Shown: in pieces, positions 22,186 through 30,928 of the stretch | Layout of the letters: the number at the start of each line of letters is the position of its first letter | How positions within the stretch are numbered: the stretch's first letter is position 1 | Source: Micromonospora sp. WMMD1082 | GTDB lineage: Bacteria > Actinomycetota > Actinomycetes > Mycobacteriales > Micromonosporaceae | Length of the DNA stretch: 64,000 nucleotides | NCBI RefSeq assembly: GCF_029626175.1 | Contig: NZ_JARUBM010000002.1 | Coordinates: 2,368,501 to 2,432,500 of the forward strand | Direction of reading: 5' to 3' | The notes under the pieces: model-generated | Databases searched by the model: none | What the model saw: the letters and a program-made list of their open reading frames with translations, nothing else | Told to the model about the DNA's origin: nothing | Made by a program: the position numbers and the translations under genes

Positions 22186-22282
22186 GGGAAAACCATCGCA
22201 TGCGATCCCAGCGAAGGCAATCAATCACTCACGGTAACGCCCAACCCTCAACGGAAGACGCCCGGCCGATCCTCACGGATCT

Positions 22283-22363
22283 ACCGGGCGTTCTCGCTGT
22301 TCACGAGCGGTGGCGGCGGGATTTGAACCCGCGGAGGGCGTAAACCCTCACACGCTTTCGAGG
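22283..22363. repeat. Left attachment repeat (tRNA-Ser 3' remnant)
   Basis: Identical over 81 bases to 30817-30897. On the minus strand it contains the anticodon-loop 3' side, variable arm, T-arm and acceptor 3' strand of tRNA-Ser plus the terminator right arm. The tRNA 5' half is missing here, so this is a remnant and not a gene. Confidence 0.9.
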
Positions 22364-23820: not shown

Positions 23821-24195
23821 CCCGACCTGGGCCGTCGATCGGACCTGCGCATCCGGTGACGCGGACGCGCCCAGAACAATTCCAGTAAGCGCCAATGCCG
23901 GCTTGGTGGGGCAGTGCCCGCAGAAGTCCGTCGCCATGAGGCTAGGACATAGACCGTCCAGCCATACGACATGATGGACAGGGACCGCAGCCAAGTCGTC
24001 GGCGAACCGCCTGGGATGCGTATGGCTCAGTCACGCCTGCCGAGCAGGAAATGCTCCCGAAACTTCAGGGCGGCATTTGTCAAGCGACTGTCAGTTATCG
24101 GCCAGGCTGCATCGCAATAGCGCAAGGTCAATCGTTCGACGGGTAACTTGTCAGACCTCTTGCGTAACCTGCTTGCCAAGAACCGGGAGGAACCC
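23821..24195. other. 375-base stretch without a recognised gene
   Basis: Frames on either strand lack ribosome sites and look like chance. The end of the stretch should contain the promoter of the two-gene operon that follows; base composition drops from about 24040 onward. A TTG at 24148 would extend the next protein by 16 residues. Confidence 0.4.
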
Positions 24196-25035
24196 GTGGC
24201 GAAGAAGCGCGACACGCCCTACCGCTCGTTGACTACCCACAGATACGTCCTTGTGGCAGCTGCTGTCTTCGTTCTGGGCGCATACTTCCTATATCTAGGA
24301 GGCGAAGAGACCCGATTCTGGCAGAGTCATCCAGGTTTGAGGACCTTGATGGAACAGCTGGGCGGGCTACTAATCGTGACGGCCGGCATCTCCATCCTGT
24401 GGGAACTGATTGGAAAACGTTCGTTCGCGCGAGAGGTTCTGGAGTCAACGCGAACGGCCAACGAAATTGAATCGGCTGGCCTTAAGCGAATAACGAACCA
24501 GTTCTACGACGAAGCGCTGTGGAAATATTGCTTCAAGGGTGTCGAAAAGCTGGATATCTTCGTCGCCTACGGTGGAACGTGGCGGCGGACCTACCTCTCG
24601 CAGCTGCAAACGCTAGCCAAGAGCGCGAAGGGGCGAATTCGGGTCTACCTCGCCGATCCAGAAGACCCTGCAACGATCACAACGTTGGCGAATAGGTTTG
24701 GCTCCACCCCGGAGAAGCTGAAGGAAAAGATCTGGGAGACCAAGGAAGAATTCGAGGCGTTGCAGCAGGAAGGCGGAGCGTCCGTTCAGGTCTTCTTCTG
24801 GGCCGGTGACCGCGTATTCACCTTTTACAGATTCGACAACCGGGCTGTCGTTGCTCTATATCAACACAGTGAAGGGCGATCGCCGGTACTGCCAACGATT
24901 CAATGCGAGAACGGAGGCTCTCTGTTCCAGTTTGTCTATGACGAGCTTCGCTCAATCCGCACCGCAAGTCGTCCTGCGACACAGCAGGACGAGGATGACA
25001 TCTCTGCCGTCGTGACGCAAATCAGGAGAGGTTAG
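24196..25035 (+). CDS. Two-TM protein with soluble, PLD-like domain (candidate effector)
   Basis: A 279-residue protein. Two membrane helices come first: about residues 16-35 (YVLVAAAVFVLGAYFLYLGG) and 53-72 (LGGLLIVTAGISILWELIGK). The rest, about 200 residues, is cytosolic, with segments KLDIFVAYGGTWRRTYL and GRIRVYLADPEDPATI that recall noncatalytic phospholipase-D-like folds; no HKD motif is visible. GTG at 24196 is chosen because GGGAGG lies 5 bases upstream. GC is clearly lower than the flanks. The stop is 1 base before the exonuclease gene, so the two are an operon. Two-TM proteins beside a nuclease in an island suggest a conflict or defence role; this is inference. Confidence 0.72.
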   Translation: MAKKRDTPYRSLTTHRYVLVAAAVFVLGAYFLYLGGEETRFWQSHPGLRTLMEQLGGLLIVTAGISILWELIGKRSFAREVLESTRTANEIESAGLKRITNQFYDEALWKYCFKGVEKLDIFVAYGGTWRRTYLSQLQTLAKSAKGRIRVYLADPEDPATITTLANRFGSTPEKLKEKIWETKEEFEALQQEGGASVQVFFWAGDRVFTFYRFDNRAVVALYQHSEGRSPVLPTIQCENGGSLFQFVYDELRSIRTASRPATQQDEDDISAVVTQIRRG

Positions 25036-25036
25036 A

Positions 25037-25663
25037 ATGATGACGATGGAAGTGGACGTTGTTCGAGACGATCTCGACAACGCCACCTTTGCGACCCTGC
25101 GCTCATCAGGGGAATTTGCCTGCGACATCGAGACAACCGGCCTGGACCCAAATAGGAACAGTATTGGAACAGTGCAAATCCACGCGCGAGGCATTAGGTC
25201 TATTGTCATGCAAGTAAGCGACGCGCATCCCGTCAACCTATGCACTTTAATTCAAGATGCGAGAGTGCGGAAAGTATTCCACCATGCCATGTTTGATCTC
25301 CGTTTCATGGCTGCATCCTGGCGCGTGCAGCCACAAAACATTGCATGCACTAAGATTGCCTCCAAGCTTCTGCTGCCTCATGCGGATAGCGCACGTCATT
25401 CGCTTCGAGCGCTACTCAAAGAACGGCTCAATGTTTCCATCAGTAAGGACGAGCGGCTCAGCAACTGGACGAATTCGAGCCTGACTGCTGCGCAGATCGG
25501 CTATGCTGTGGCCGATGTGGAACATCTCCTTCCGCTACTCAATTCCCTTGAGCATGACCTACACGGGGCCGGGCTGATCGAGCTCTTCGAGGGATGCAAT
25601 TCATTTATACCCACACGAGTCCGCTTGGACCTGGGCGACTGGCCTGACGTGTTTATTTACTAA
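25037..25663 (+). CDS. DEDDy 3'-5' exonuclease, RNase D-like, compact
   Basis: Predicted metal-dependent 3'-5' exonuclease on RNA or DNA. All catalytic positions are present: D30 and E32 (CDIETTGLD), D87 (FHHAMFDLRF), Y156 and D160 (YAVADVEHL). The K/S-W segment before the last motif (ISKDERLSNW) is RNase D/WRN-like. At 208 residues it lacks HRDC or other C-terminal domains, unlike housekeeping RNase D. Low GC matches the upstream gene, to which it is coupled (1-base gap). Residues 95-208 lie in the 615-bp segment duplicated by the IS insertion, but this left copy is complete. Confidence 0.9.
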   Translation: MMTMEVDVVRDDLDNATFATLRSSGEFACDIETTGLDPNRNSIGTVQIHARGIRSIVMQVSDAHPVNLCTLIQDARVRKVFHHAMFDLRFMAASWRVQPQNIACTKIASKLLLPHADSARHSLRALLKERLNVSISKDERLSNWTNSSLTAAQIGYAVADVEHLLPLLNSLEHDLHGAGLIELFEGCNSFIPTRVRLDLGDWPDVFIY

Positions 25664-25933
25664 TCCGACGGAGCGACAGAGTCCCGTCGATGCTGGGGCA
25701 AGATGTTCCAGTACCGCCCTCGCGGCAATGGCTACTGGCGGCGCTTTAGGCTGTTCCGAATGTGCTGAATTCGGCAGCCAGTGCAAACCAACGCAAACAT
25801 CTTGATTGCAGGGTCTACCGACTGGCAGAATGACCGCCGATGCTGACCGGCTAAGGGAGTTGGAAATGTCCTTAGAGTTTCTCGGCAAAGATCCTGATAG
25901 CCCAAACGGTGATTCGCCAACGCTGTACTACGA
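25319..25933. repeat. Left copy of the 615-bp target duplication
   Basis: Identical, as far as read, to 27704-28318. It abuts the left end of the IS exactly. It contains the second half of the exonuclease gene, the intergenic promoter region and the first 22 codons of the small gene that is intact at 28251. Confidence 0.93.
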
Positions 25934-25979
25934 CCTGAGTTTGGTCATTTCGTTAGTGCCTGAGGTCCGCTCGGCGTGA
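25866..25979 (+). pseudogene. 5' fragment of the 75-residue gene, cut by the IS
   Basis: Begins MSLEFLGKDPDSPNGDSPT like the intact gene at 28251, then runs into IS sequence after LYYD and stops 15 codons later. It keeps the promoter and ribosome site, so a 37-residue fusion could still be made, but it has lost most of the protein. Confidence 0.85.
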
Positions 25980-27703
25980 GGGCGTTGATGATGGCTTGCT
26001 GGTCGGGGTCGATTTGGGGTGGGAACGTCTGGGTGGCGTTGTTGATCGCGAGGGTCGCGGATCGTAGTGGGCGTAGTTGACGGAGGACGTTGCGGATCGC
26101 GAGTCCGGTGCGGTTCTGGACTTCGCGGGTGACGGCCAGGGCGGTGAAGACGATGGTCAGGTGTGCCTCGATGGCGTCTTTGGTGTGGTGGAACATGGGT
26201 CGGGCGGCGAGGTCGGTTTTGGACATGCGGAAGGACTGCTCGACGTGCCACAGGTCGTGGTAGTTGGAGATCACGTTGCTGGGGCTCATCACGTGGTGGC
26301 CGATGTTGGTGACGTAGCCCTTGAGCCCGACGAGTTTGCGTGCTCTGGCCAGTGACGCTTCGTCGAGGGTGCGGGTGTTGCCGTTGATGGTGACGAACCT
26401 CGGGGTTCGGGTCGTCTTCTCTCCGGCGATGACGGCTCGTGCCTTTGCCTCTTGGGCGTTGAGGGTCTTGTTGTCCCGGACAGCGCGGGTGGCTGAGTAG
26501 GCCCACACCGCCCGCCACGAGGATGTATGGGTTCGTGGGTTCCACACCGGTTCGGCTTTGAGGGCGGGGTCGTTGTCGCGGTTGGTGCCGGTGCGGGGGG
26601 TGATCGTGTCGATGATCTGCCCGTCGGTGAAGTAGTCCCCGTGCCAGCGGTAGTGGGACTCCAGGTCGATCGGCGCTTTGGTGGTGCGGGAGCCGACGAT
26701 GAAGCCGAGGCCGGCCTCGTCGAGTTCGCGTAGGTTGGTCGCCGAGAGCATGCCGGCGTCGGCGACGATGACCATGCCGGTGATCTGGTGGCGGGCCTGG
26801 AACTGGCGGATGACCGGCAGCAACGTCAGCGTCTCGGCCTTGTTGCCGGCGAAGCAGCCGATCTCCAACGGGAACCCGTGCCGGTCGACGAGCAGCCCGA
26901 CGACGATCTGCGGGTCTACGCGTCGTTCCTTGGAGTATCCGACCTTGCGCAGGTCGTCCTCCTTGTCGGCCTCGAAGTACAACGTGGTCACGTCGTACAG
27001 GCACAGGCTGACATCGCCGCTGCTCATGGCGTGGGCGAAGCACAACTGCGCGATCTGGTCGCGGTATGCGCCTGTGTGGGCGCGGGTCAGGGTGCGGCGC
27101 ATCGTCTTCTCGCTGGCCGGCTTACAACCCAGGTCGGTCAGCACCCGGCCGGTGTCTCGGATCGAGGTCGGCTCCACGATCCGCGCGATCACCAGGTCCC
27201 GGAAGACCCTGTCACCCACCGCGTCGAACCCCAGGGCTGTGAACACCGAGGCCAGCACGTCGTACAGCACCCGCGACGCCGTCGACACCACCCGCGGCGC
27301 GGCGACCGCCGCTGGCCCACGCTCCGGTGAACCGTCGGCGTCCAACAGCGCCGCGTCACCGGCCGGGCCGACCAACGTCGCCCTCGGCGCGACCGGCTCG
27401 ATACCGAGCTCGAACTCACCCTGCCCGGGATCGGCGAGAAGCTCGCGGGCCCGCGACAACAGCAGCCCCAACTCAGCCTCGGTACGCGCCGAGCCCACAT
27501 GAGCAACGATCCGCCGACGCCCGCCAACGGACTCGGCGATCTGCACCGCCGTCGCGCCCGAAGCCGTCCGCACCCGCCGAATCCACGCCACGAACCCGAG
27601 CGTAAGACACCAATTAGTGCCTCAGAAACATCCCACCAGCACCCAACACCCCAGGTCAGAGCGCTACACCCCGTCGCGCCGCGAGGCGGTGACCAAACTC
27701 AGG
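25934..27703. mobile_element. IS1634-family insertion sequence, 1770 bp
   Basis: Bounded by terminal inverted repeats beginning cctgagtttggtca (left 25934-25947; right 27690-27703 as its complement), 14 bases perfect. One transposase gene on the minus strand fills it. The element is flanked by a 615-bp direct repeat. IS1634-type elements of mycoplasmas are known for making unusually long, variable target duplications, so the duplication fits the family. Identity of the two copies indicates a recent insertion. Confidence 0.93.
25945..27591 (-). CDS. IS1634-family transposase
   Basis: DDE transposase of 548 residues, full length. Catalytic acids appear as D in CLYDVTTLYFEADKED (about residue 199), D in VIVADAGMLSATN (about 277) and E in LWHVEQSFRMSKTDL (about 451); the last matches the E-x6-K part of the IS4/IS1634 signature. 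The N-terminal 120 residues carry a variable, Ala-rich region. The stop lies 11 bases from the IS left end. High GC and actinobacterial codon use contrast with the low-GC gene it landed beside, so the IS came from a high-GC host. Confidence 0.95.
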   Translation of the reverse strand: MAWIRRVRTASGATAVQIAESVGGRRRIVAHVGSARTEAELGLLLSRARELLADPGQGEFELGIEPVAPRATLVGPAGDAALLDADGSPERGPAAVAAPRVVSTASRVLYDVLASVFTALGFDAVGDRVFRDLVIARIVEPTSIRDTGRVLTDLGCKPASEKTMRRTLTRAHTGAYRDQIAQLCFAHAMSSGDVSLCLYDVTTLYFEADKEDDLRKVGYSKERRVDPQIVVGLLVDRHGFPLEIGCFAGNKAETLTLLPVIRQFQARHQITGMVIVADAGMLSATNLRELDEAGLGFIVGSRTTKAPIDLESHYRWHGDYFTDGQIIDTITPRTGTNRDNDPALKAEPVWNPRTHTSSWRAVWAYSATRAVRDNKTLNAQEAKARAVIAGEKTTRTPRFVTINGNTRTLDEASLARARKLVGLKGYVTNIGHHVMSPSNVISNYHDLWHVEQSFRMSKTDLAARPMFHHTKDAIEAHLTIVFTALAVTREVQNRTGLAIRNVLRQLRPLRSATLAINNATQTFPPQIDPDQQAIINALTPSGPQALTK

Positions 27704-28048
27704 TGGCGCGTGCAGCCACAAAACATTGCATGCACTAAGATTGCCTCCAAGCTTCTGCTGCCTCATGCGGATAGCGCACGTCATTCGCTTCGAGCGCTAC
27801 TCAAAGAACGGCTCAATGTTTCCATCAGTAAGGACGAGCGGCTCAGCAACTGGACGAATTCGAGCCTGACTGCTGCGCAGATCGGCTATGCTGTGGCCGA
27901 TGTGGAACATCTCCTTCCGCTACTCAATTCCCTTGAGCATGACCTACACGGGGCCGGGCTGATCGAGCTCTTCGAGGGATGCAATTCATTTATACCCACA
28001 CGAGTCCGCTTGGACCTGGGCGACTGGCCTGACGTGTTTATTTACTAA
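27704..28048 (+). pseudogene. C-terminal fragment of the DEDDy exonuclease
   Basis: Encodes residues 95-208 of the exonuclease (from WRVQPQNIACTK to the end). It lacks D30, E32 and D87, so it cannot be active. It has no ribosome site of its own; a frame reading in from the IS end (27617) is open but fortuitous. A by-product of the target duplication. Confidence 0.88.
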
Positions 28049-28166
28049 TCCGACGGAGCGACAGAGTCCCGTCGATGCTGGGGCAAGATGTTCCAGTACC
28101 GCCCTCGCGGCAATGGCTACTGGCGGCGCTTTAGGCTGTTCCGAATGTGCTGAATTCGGCAGCCAG

Positions 28167-28216
28167 TGCAAACCAACGCAAACATCTTGATTGCAGGGTC
28201 TACCGACTGGCAGAAT
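28167..28216 (+). promoter_or_regulatory. Promoter of the small-protein/DUF6879/XRE cassette
   Basis: TTGATT (28187-28192) and CAGAAT (28211-28216) are 18 bases apart, about 35 bases before the ATG at 28251. Just upstream lies tgcaaaccaacgcaaac (28167-28183), two GCAAAC boxes. A near match, TGCAAACC-N3-GCACAC, occurs at 29852-29868. The whole site is also present in the left duplicate (25782-25831). Confidence 0.55.
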
Positions 28217-28250
28217 GACCGCCGATGCTGACCGGCTAAGGGAGTTGGAA

Positions 28251-28478
28251 ATGTCCTTAGAGTTTCTCGGCAAAGATCCTGATAGCCCAAACGGTGATTC
28301 GCCAACGCTGTACTACGATGAGGAGCGGGACACGTACCTTTTCCAGAGTTGGAAGGTGACGGACCTTGAGCGGTTGGCCCAGCTGGATATGCCCGACCAC
28401 GAGACGGTGATCGAGTTTCCGAGGCGGATGATGCAGTTTTTCCCGGAGGTGAACGGTGGTGCCGACGCCTCGGCTTGA
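28251..28478 (+). CDS. 75-residue acidic protein of a DUF6879/XRE cassette
   Basis: MSLEFLGKDPDSPNGDSPT opens a small acidic protein with SWKVTDLERLAQLDMPDHE in the middle and RRMMQFFPEVNGGAD near the end. I recall similar short proteins next to DUF6879 and DUF5753 genes in actinomycetes, but no function is established. ATG at 28251 is chosen because AGGGA lies 8 bases upstream and the promoter candidate would place the transcript start after the alternative ATG at 28215. It overlaps the DUF6879 gene by 23 bases. The first 22 codons lie in the IS target duplication. Confidence 0.75.
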   Translation: MSLEFLGKDPDSPNGDSPTLYYDEERDTYLFQSWKVTDLERLAQLDMPDHETVIEFPRRMMQFFPEVNGGADASA

Positions 28479-28974
28479 GGATCTGCTGCGCTCATGTGTC
28501 CGGTCGGCAGTGCATCTGGAGTTGCGTGACGGCTACCAACTGGACGATCCGATGTTCCGGGACTGGCAGGCGGGCCACCGGTTCGACCAGGCCGACCGTG
28601 CATCGTGGTGGCATCCGTGGCTGGAGGTCGTGACCGAGACGGTAGGCCGTGGGGTCGACGTCCGGCGGGCACGGGTCGTGTCCGAGCCGGTCAGCGAGTA
28701 CATCCAGTTCGAGTACGACGTGACCTTCCGGAACGTCGTCGTGGGCGAGCACGTCCGGTGGCTGTCCCGACGACGGACGACTGACCTGGCGCTGCCCGGT
28801 AACGACTTCTGGCTGTTCGATGACGAGGTGTTGTTGGTGCACCACTTCAACGGGGAGGGCGACAAGATGGATGCCGAGCTGGTGACGGAGTCGGACGTGG
28901 TGAAGCTATCCAGCTCGGCGTTCGAGTCGGTGTGGGAACGTGCCACCCCGCACGCCGACTACCGGCCGATCTGA
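28456..28974 (+). CDS. DUF6879 family protein
   Basis: A soluble 172-residue protein with Trp/Phe-rich segments (FRDWQAGHRFDQADRASWW, VGEHVRWLSRR, DFWLFDDEVLLVHHFN) typical of the DUF6879 family, which is found beside XRE-type regulators in actinomycetes; function unknown. GTG at 28456 (or 28459) follows GGAGG at 28445. It is translationally coupled to the upstream 75-residue gene and is followed after 21 bases by the XRE gene. Confidence 0.82.
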   Translation: MVPTPRLEDLLRSCVRSAVHLELRDGYQLDDPMFRDWQAGHRFDQADRASWWHPWLEVVTETVGRGVDVRRARVVSEPVSEYIQFEYDVTFRNVVVGEHVRWLSRRRTTDLALPGNDFWLFDDEVLLVHHFNGEGDKMDAELVTESDVVKLSSSAFESVWERATPHADYRPI

Positions 28975-28995
28975 CGACCGACTATCGCCGTTCTC

Positions 28996-29847
28996 GTGCC
29001 GTCGCCCTCGTCCAGTGCACAGCAGGCACTCGAAGCGCTCGGCGTCCGCCTGCGTGAAATCCGCACCGACGCTGGCTTGACCGGACGTGACCTCGGCCGG
29101 CTAGCCGGCTGGCATTCGTCCAAGGTGAGCAGGATCGAGCATGCCAAGCAGACGCCTTCCCCCGACGACATCGACGCCTGGTGCCGGCACTGCCGAGCCG
29201 TGGACCAGGCTGCGGACCTGACCGCCTCGCTGAGGATCGCCGAAGGCATGTTCGTGGAGTGGCGTCGGATGGAACGCACCGGCCTCCGGTTGGCGCAGCA
29301 AGCCGTGGTGCCGCTCTGGGAACGGACCCGTGGATTCCGCATCTACTCTCCCCGGCTGATACCCGGGCCAGTGCAGACACGCGAATACATCACCGCGCTG
29401 CTCTCCGGCCTCATCGTGCGGCGGCGCATCCCCGACGACCTGGAGGCCGCCGTACAGGTCCGTGTCGACAAGCAGCACGTCGTGTACGAGGGCGATCATC
29501 GCTTCGCCATCGTCCTGGAGGAGAGCGTGCTTCGGTATCCCATCGGCGGGGACGACACCATGGCCGGCCAACTCGGCCACCTGCTGACGGTCGGTGCCCT
29601 CCCATCGGTGTCCCTGGGCGTGATCCCGCTCGGGGCGGACCGGTCCACGCTGTGGCCGGTCGAAGGGTTCTGGATGTTCGACGACGAGCAGGTCTCCGTG
29701 GAGCTGGTTTCCGGCCATCTCACGATCACCCAGCCACGCGAGATCGCGATGTACGCCGACGTCTTCACCCAACTCGCCGACCTGGCGGTCTACGGCTCTG
29801 CGGCACGGCACCTCATCACCGCAGCAATCAACGCCCTCGACACCTGA
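28996..29847 (+). CDS. XRE-family regulator with DUF5753 domain
   Basis: A 283-residue DNA-binding protein. The HTH lies at about residues 15-70 (LREIRTDAGLTGRDLGRLAG, then WHSSKVSRIEHAKQTPS). A DUF5753 domain of about 180 residues follows, starting at LIPGPVQTREYI and containing DDEQVSVELVSGHLTI. Such proteins are abundant in actinomycetes; some act as antitoxin-like or developmental regulators with DUF397 or DUF6879 partners. GTG at 28996 lacks an obvious ribosome site. It probably controls this cassette through the GCAAAC boxes, which is inference. Confidence 0.88.
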   Translation: MPSPSSSAQQALEALGVRLREIRTDAGLTGRDLGRLAGWHSSKVSRIEHAKQTPSPDDIDAWCRHCRAVDQAADLTASLRIAEGMFVEWRRMERTGLRLAQQAVVPLWERTRGFRIYSPRLIPGPVQTREYITALLSGLIVRRRIPDDLEAAVQVRVDKQHVVYEGDHRFAIVLEESVLRYPIGGDDTMAGQLGHLLTVGALPSVSLGVIPLGADRSTLWPVEGFWMFDDEQVSVELVSGHLTITQPREIAMYADVFTQLADLAVYGSAARHLITAAINALDT

Positions 29848-30714: not shown

Positions 30715-30816
30715 CAAGAGGCTTACTTCACCGTCCCTGGTGTGTCGCCGTTGACGCCGACTGAGACCACAACTGAGACCAGATGCGAAAACGCCCGGGG
30801 CGATCCTCACGGACCG

Positions 30817-30897
30817 ACCGGGCGTTCTCGCTGTTCACGAGCGGTGGCGGCGGGATTTGAACCCGCGGAGGGCGTAAACCCTCACACGCTTTCGAGG
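30817..30897. repeat. Right attachment repeat
   Basis: Identical over 81 bases to 22283-22363. It covers the 3' half of the intact tRNA-Ser(CGA) and the right arm of its terminator. At its left, 30762-30782 holds the TGAGACCA pair matching the left end of the island. Confidence 0.9.
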
Positions 30898-30928
30898 CGT
30901 GCTCCTTAGGCCACTCGGACACGCCACC
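30842..30928 (-). tRNA. tRNA-Ser, anticodon CGA
   Basis: Class II tRNA of 87 bases on the minus strand: acceptor ggtggcg/cgccacc, anticodon loop ctCGAaa on stem cacgc/gcgtg, long variable arm and T-loop gttcaaatc. CCA is not encoded. It reads UCG. Its 3' half is the island attachment core. A hairpin (30790-30826, arms aacgcccgg/ccgggcgtt) serves as terminator. Confidence 0.97.

Follow-up and report, generated by a model that had tools for sequence, protein, structure and literature searches.

The subject of this analysis is an insertion sequence (IS) of the IS1634 family in Micromonospora sp. WMMD1082, together with the 615-bp direct repeats between which it lies. We analysed a 64,000-nucleotide stretch of contig NZ_JARUBM010000002.1 (positions 2,368,501 to 2,432,500), referred to throughout as the window, in which the IS and its repeats are arranged as follows (window coordinates).

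25319..25933, no strand: left copy of the 615-bp direct repeat, read as the duplicated target; 615/615 identical to 27704-28318, maximal
25934..27703, minus strand: IS1634-family insertion sequence, 1770 bp, with four further identical copies in the genome
25934..25947, plus strand: terminal inverted repeat (ITR), left end in the window, CCTGAGTTTGGTCA
25945..27591, minus strand: DDE transposase, 548 aa, IS1634 family (PF01609, 2.6e-11; NF033559, 2.2e-120)
27690..27703, minus strand: ITR, right end in the window
27704..28318, no strand: right copy of the 615-bp direct repeat, 615/615 identical to the left copy

Base-by-base comparison of positions 25319-25933 with 27704-28318 gives 0 mismatches, the exact match cannot be extended on either side, and the 615-mer is found in the window only at 25319 and 27704. 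Both copies abut the IS directly, and the ends of the IS are perfect 14-bp inverted repeats. A preliminary description of this locus had claimed identical 615-bp copies flush with the inverted ends of a 1770-bp element, and in this it was exact. From the window alone the IS boundaries could be slid by one base, as the A at 25933 and the T at 27704 mimic a fifteenth base of the ITR; the copies L160 and L161 lack that base, which is thus flanking DNA, and the boundaries are thereby fixed. As a control for chance, flanks from different copies were paired with one another: a repeat of at least 12 bp appeared in 2 of 4032 such mismatched pairs, and we therefore exclude a chance origin of the repeats. 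The best reading of the locus, and one that these observations support, is a 615-bp target duplication made at IS insertion. As far as a sequence can attest, the insertion in the window appears to be recent and the 615 bp of target to have been duplicated in a single event.

Two genes reach into the repeated segment, each present both whole and as a remnant.

25037..25663, plus strand: 3'-5' exonuclease gene (DNA_pol_A_exo1), intact, its end within the left repeat
25866..25979, plus strand: 5' remnant of the small gene (22 codons) in the left repeat, which reads into the IS and stops at 37 aa
27704..28048, plus strand: 3' remnant of the exonuclease gene (114 codons and a stop) within the right repeat, its reading frame open into the IS end
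28251..28478, plus strand: small gene, intact, 75 aa from the chosen ATG, its start within the right repeat

The remnants lie in the opposite repeat copies to the intact ends, and the earlier claim that both neighbours are preserved, each with a broken twin, holds. The start of the small gene at ATG 28251 is our choice; the mechanical list of open reading frames (ORFs) has a TTG at 28191.

The transposase scores 402.9 bits against the IS1634-family model NF033559 (cut-off 100), which bears out the assignment to this family made from the letters alone. In its portions on the family, PMC2266710 gives IS1634 elements a length of 1500-2000 bp and ends of the form C-----YT, with a complete YREK absent and its arginine mostly missing. 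The 1770-bp element fits that length range, CCTGAGTT at both of its ends fits C-----YT, and the catalytic E region of its transposase reads Y-x2-L-x3-E-x6-K (YHDLWHVEQSFRMSK), so that YREK is incomplete through replacement of the arginine by leucine. As to the family's target repeats (typically 5-6 bp, but variable and long in IS1634 and IS1549 themselves), the copies in this genome have 5, 15, 23, 459 and 615 bp; the typical 5-6 bp taken alone describes one copy of the five, and IS1634, the type element, does not conform to it either. We rejected membership of the IS4 family sensu stricto, for which the same source describes Y-x2-R-x3-E-x6-K and repeats of 7-13 bp: the arginine is a leucine here, the IS4 model gives 28.3 bits against a cut-off of 115, and the repeats span 5-615 bp. 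A search of a phage collection for relatives of the transposase at E 1e-60 returned none.

The genome (7.44 Mb, 2 contigs) carries five full-length copies of the IS, 100% identical over 1770 bases, and all five of their direct repeats are perfect, suggesting recent transposition activity. Short duplications at other copies of the same IS had been named beforehand as an outcome that would speak against a long target duplication. Such duplications exist (5, 15 and 23 bp), yet given the 459-bp copy they leave the long duplication standing, because the range of 5-615 bp is the variable length of one element in one host. The same genome also holds a second IS1634-type element (L162, contig C2, about 3,589,000), whose transposase is 38% identical and which has a perfect 50-bp repeat.

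The flanks of related copies were then gathered from genomes at the family, class and order levels, from named genome contigs and from plasmid records, a scope wider than the Micromonosporaceae proposed earlier. The 163 transposase ORFs found were reduced to 77 unique copies by requiring a profile score of at least 150 and CC..GG ends with an ITR score of at least 10, and by keeping one copy per joint sequence. The final survey comprises loci L038-L061, L084, L158-L236 and L278-L309 with the window; all other loci, shorter initial versions of these places included, were excluded. It is important to note that these filters drop distant members, such as the G987 and G435 elements (two G435 copies have 6-bp repeats), and that where several end pairs were possible the pair with a repeat of at least 12 bp was preferred, a bias bounded by the mispaired control (2/4032). 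Some distant IS1634-type elements (L189-L191, L193, L194, L296 and L297) have inverted ends that run through CTAG, perhaps a 4-bp palindromic target.

The repeats of the surveyed copies are variable: 41 of the 77 copies have repeats of at least 7 bp (range 8-615, perfect in 37/41), 16 have 5-6 bp and 20 have none. Restricting the count to the 64 copies whose flanks both exceed 3 kb leaves 35 with a repeat of at least 7 bp, 16 with one of 4-6 bp and 13 with none; a flank is 3 kb or shorter in 7 of the 20 repeat-free copies, and 16 repeat-free copies with more than 400 bp on each side were inspected for broken genes. Examples of long repeats elsewhere are one on a plasmid of Mycobacterium riyadhense, 608 bp with one mismatch, and one of 523 bp in Mycolicibacterium tusciae. 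Length also varies between copies within a genome, with 365, 128, 64 and 5 bp in G383, and 330 and 126 bp in G353. Two lineages show 5 bp only, namely G481 (5/5 copies with recognised ends, seven places having been found) and the element of L169, L170 and L175 (3/3 with recognised ends; L176 is without them). Genome G205 has one element with 5 and 5 bp, a second with 99 bp and none, and a further element with none; it thus holds both repeat types, and therefore the host alone does not set repeat length.

In a quick transposase tree of 63 of the 77 copies (short-ORF copies and seven named loci were left out), a large supported group of 46 rows holds the window element and comprises 30 long-repeat, 10 repeat-free and 6 five-bp copies. 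Both fixed 5-bp lineages fall outside this group, as do some long repeats. The 5-bp label is clustered on the tree (8 changes, 0/500 shuffles as low). We tried repeat length as a clade-wide trait and rejected it, the long label (19 changes, 263/500 shuffles as low) and the repeat-free label (11 changes, 369/500) being unclustered.

Whether the repeat arose with the IS can be addressed at places where a relative lacks the element. Ten plasmid loci were searched for such empty sites and three were followed to one; H104 (for L279) and H96-H102 (for L289) are listed candidates outside this comparison. In all three relatives fetched, which are plasmids without the IS, the segment is present once (the repeats at the corresponding IS copies measure 147, 93 and 102 bp), and the flanks joined with one repeat align to the IS-free relatives over 2853 bp at 95.3%, 2908 bp at 91.5% and 1944 bp at 98.4%. 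A relative with the tandem duplication and no IS, which the preliminary description had said would point to a repeat older than the element, was thus not seen among the three. The 93-bp repeat is common to genome locus L178, at the expected spacing, and plasmid record L289, and two further plasmid records match that stretch (over 100% at 99.7%, and over 80% at 98.9%). For a repeat-free Salinispora copy, the flank search gave no clean empty site. Among the Salinispora mooreana copies of G205, a 92% paralogous stretch (G205:C1:2206062-2207264) starts exactly at the end of the repeat-free copy L167, which suggests a rearrangement.

We next consider the joints themselves, read outward from the element end. 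The long-repeat set consists of copies with repeats of at least 12 bp (40 copies, 80 joints), the single copy with an 8-bp repeat being placed in neither the long nor the short set. Base composition at these joints is far from even: position +1 has T 37, A 22, C 18 and G 3 (p 6e-14), position +5 has A 33, G 28, C 12 and T 7 (p 1e-7), and T occurs at -1 in 2 of 80 joints (p 3e-4), with weak deviations at +2 and -2 (p 0.0065 and 0.016). For a null, placements were drawn at random 5000 times in the same targets for 38 of the 40 copies (76 joints), two being dropped for N or short context. Against the null means, T/A at +1 was seen in 56 joints (27.1), A/G at +5 in 57 (38.1) and T at -1 in 1 (13.5), and 0/5000 random placements were as extreme on any of five measures. 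The pattern persists when each element is represented by one copy (29 targets): 42/58 joints have T/A at +1 and 45/58 have A/G at +5. The two ends behave alike, with T/A at +1 in 28/40 left and 31/40 right joints and A/G at +5 in 31/40 and 30/40. No association between +1 and +5 within a joint is apparent (45, 14, 16 and 5). The pooled signature is asymmetric about +3, 0/5000 flips being as large; by position, p is 0.0014 for +1 against the mirrored +5, 0.00061 for +2 against +4, 5.3e-5 for -1 against +6, and 0.033 for -2 against +7.

Where the repeat is 5 bp, C predominates at +2 and G at +4 (27/32 and 28/32 joints). The preference is 8/12 at each position for the six copies from variable lineages and 18/18 at each for the fixed lineages, whose 5-bp tracts in actinobacteria read YCNGR; the 5-6 bp tracts of the family are described as AT-rich in portions of PMC2266710. 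Position +5 is where the partner end joins in an ordinary 5-bp insertion, so each long joint resembles a target of the 5-bp type to which a single end has been joined. Possibly both ends can use a site that is palindromic, whereas a one-sided site suits one of them. What is new here is that part of the 5-bp target signature (+1 and +5, also -1) is present at both the left-end and the right-end joints of long-repeat copies. Among the 13 repeat-free copies with full flanks, +5 is A in 15/26 joints.

One of these repeat-free copies, L281, is nested in a related IS1634 copy, with positions 1-170 of the host IS on its left and 481-1740 on its right. By comparison with three reference copies, the host IS lacks its positions 171-480, a 310-bp loss of target whose limits coincide exactly with the joints. 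Deletions of this sort are predicted if the two ends attack independently, and the one in L281 may thus be the mirror outcome of a long repeat.

From this set of results we think it fairly probable that the 615-bp duplication in the window was made in one event, by an element of a large actinobacterial group with very variable duplications, through uncoupled two-site strand transfer. The two 3' ends of the element would not be bound to a single 5-bp staggered site; each would capture and attack a target site of its own, the sites lying up to several hundred bp apart and on opposite strands. With the stagger one way, repair or strand-displacement synthesis would copy the intervening stretch and leave a long direct repeat; with the stagger the other way, the intervening stretch would be lost as a deletion; and with both ends at one site, an ordinary 5-bp repeat would result. 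Asymmetry about +3 is the expectation under such a two-site model, because only one strand is attacked at each site. The long repeats have a median of 92 bp (n=40), their lengths fit an exponential law (Kolmogorov-Smirnov, KS, p 0.49, n 40, the mean being fitted from the data), and no helical phasing was found over seven periods (Rayleigh p 0.24-0.94). As the lengths fit an exponential or a log-uniform law and show no phasing, contact between the sites may come by chance proximity rather than by fixed geometry. We lean, if only slightly, towards a more specific version: that the ends choose their sites independently, that the outcome (a short repeat, or the duplication or loss of hundreds of bp) is set by the pair of sites, and that a near-palindromic YCNGR gives 5 bp while at a site fit for one end the second end seeks another.

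Several points weigh against this proposal. Uncoupled strand transfer is what we infer from comparing sequences. The long joints carry a partial 5-bp signature, showing no preference for C at +2 or G at +4 (28/80 and 27/80), and their lengths fit the log-uniform law as well (KS p 0.35). The surveyed copies are not independent trials. Since the G481 and L169/L170/L175 lineages show 5 bp only, uncoupling does not extend to the whole family. As to L281, its deletion could have occurred before or after insertion and is a single case, giving no frequency; the other 12 repeat-free copies with full flanks might owe their state to later loss or to recombination between copies. Finally, for the window itself, the whole stretch as query matched 17 of 121 genus genomes, its own included, the other 16 in the IS only; at most two candidates were scored per genome, and flank matches could thus have been crowded out. 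On the same terms, the left flank with its repeat matched 1/121, its own genome, and the right repeat with its flank 6/121, its own and five at 69-73% over 156-210 bp, all beyond the 615-bp segment. As no empty site for the window was found among the 121 genus genomes, two candidates being scored in each, 'one copy before, two after' is carried over to it from the relatives.

How else might such repeats arise? The alternative that survives best, which we nonetheless consider unlikely, is that two close 5-bp insertions in the same orientation were followed by unequal recombination of sister chromosomes, so that a single IS was left with one copy of the intervening stretch on each side. This too would put a 5-bp-type signature at both joints, and deletions would be its reciprocal product. 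Such a history predicts a signature that is symmetric about +3 and complete at +2 and +4, whereas that observed is asymmetric (none of the 5000 flips) and without the C and G at those positions; it also requires two close insertions for each of about 40 copies. Furthermore, fresh laboratory insertions of IS1549 are said to carry repeats of 71-246 bp already. Less likely still is a single 5-bp insertion followed by over-long repair synthesis: strand displacement in gap repair is plausible, but the signature would be expected at one boundary only, and it is found at both with similar strength.

We are more sceptical again of the suggestion that the IS was captured at a break during a duplication event, without itself cutting the target. 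Entry at breaks during duplications or deletions has been proposed for IS481 and IS5, and the portions of PMC11708052 on these elements describe one IS lying between the two copies of a duplication and another situated at a deletion. Capture would not be expected to leave a transposase target signature at both ends, yet one is present; the exactness of the element ends is no test of this idea, because exact ends were required for entry into the survey. That the IS jumped into the junction of an existing tandem duplication is scarcely credible, for while perfect repeats abutting the IS are expected of it, and observed, the three IS-free relatives are single-copy and exact junction hits would have to recur (459 and 615 bp in the same genome). 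An assembly artefact seems equally remote: a multicopy IS flanked by long identical repeats is a well-known hazard in assembly, and the assembly here was checked indirectly rather than by reads, but the genome is in 2 contigs, it has two such loci of different length, and the same 93-bp repeat stands in the L178 genome and the L289 plasmid record, its stretch being matched by the two further plasmid records.

The surroundings of the insertion offer some separate observations. The exonuclease gene is preceded, at a distance of 1 base, by a gene whose 295-aa product has no Pfam match, and the pair (24148-25663) is perhaps a two-gene unit. The exonuclease itself weakly resembles the end of the BrxHI model (7.3e-8). 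The small gene, a DUF6879 gene and an HTH_31-DUF5753 regulator lie consecutively (28251-29847). A 103-bp direct repeat (99/103 identical, 22261-22363 and 30795-30897) bounds an 8.5-kb stretch, its right copy overlaps tRNA-Ser(CGA) at 30841-30928, and G+C falls to 53-57% at 24000-26000 against 70% for the window. On account of the bounding repeat, the tRNA overlap and the lower G+C, the stretch looks like an integrated island carrying the IS; no integrase was found among the proteins scanned there, which cover part of its ORFs.

Long variable repeats have precedents in this family. According to the relevant portions of PMC2266710 (2008), the actinobacterial element IS1549 of Mycobacterium smegmatis and the family type element IS1634 of Mycoplasma mycoides both make them, over a joint range of 8-514 bp, with 5-6 bp as the typical family length, and no mechanistic model had been proposed by that date. 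We liken our element to IS1549 by description, not by sequence; its genome differs in reaching 459 and 615 bp. IS1634 itself differs in its mollicute host and its length (1872 bp in the part of PMC1798306 that gives it, against 1770 bp here). Two further members of the family, ISGka5 (PMC8024623) and ISPfe2 (PMC3281130), have short repeats of 6 bp, no long ones being mentioned in the text portions on them. Variable repeats also occur in IS1630 of Mycoplasma fermentans, with 16, 23, 25 and 26 bp at four copies, but that element belongs to the IS30 family, targets inverted repeats (from a cited title) and has a much shorter range (PMC3317919, in its portion on the element). No later paper on mechanism in the IS1634 family was recognised by title or abstract, in a search whose coverage mostly excludes subscription journals. 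The preliminary description took this duplication to be apparently near or beyond the longest case, as a high-GC actinobacterial example. As to length this stands, the 615-bp repeat and the 608-bp case being slightly above 8-514 bp, where that quoted range, and not every family copy, is the yardstick; actinobacteria are not a new setting, given IS1549. Long variable repeats were thus known already from IS1634 and IS1549, and what is added here is comparative evidence that favours uncoupled two-site integration.

A transposase normally joins the two ends of its element to the target at a constant stagger, and this determines how long the target repeat is. Elements that depart from such a stagger offer a natural way to ask what couples the two strand transfers. 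With long repeats, an IS can insert into a gene-dense region and still spare one whole copy of each gene that spans the site; the repeats also provide homology through which recombination can remove the IS exactly. If true, uncoupled two-site transfer would be a distinct mode of integration within the DDE insertion sequences, explaining the long variable repeats. Together, the signature at the joints and the deletion in L281 allow testable predictions to be drawn from an observation that dates from the late 1990s.

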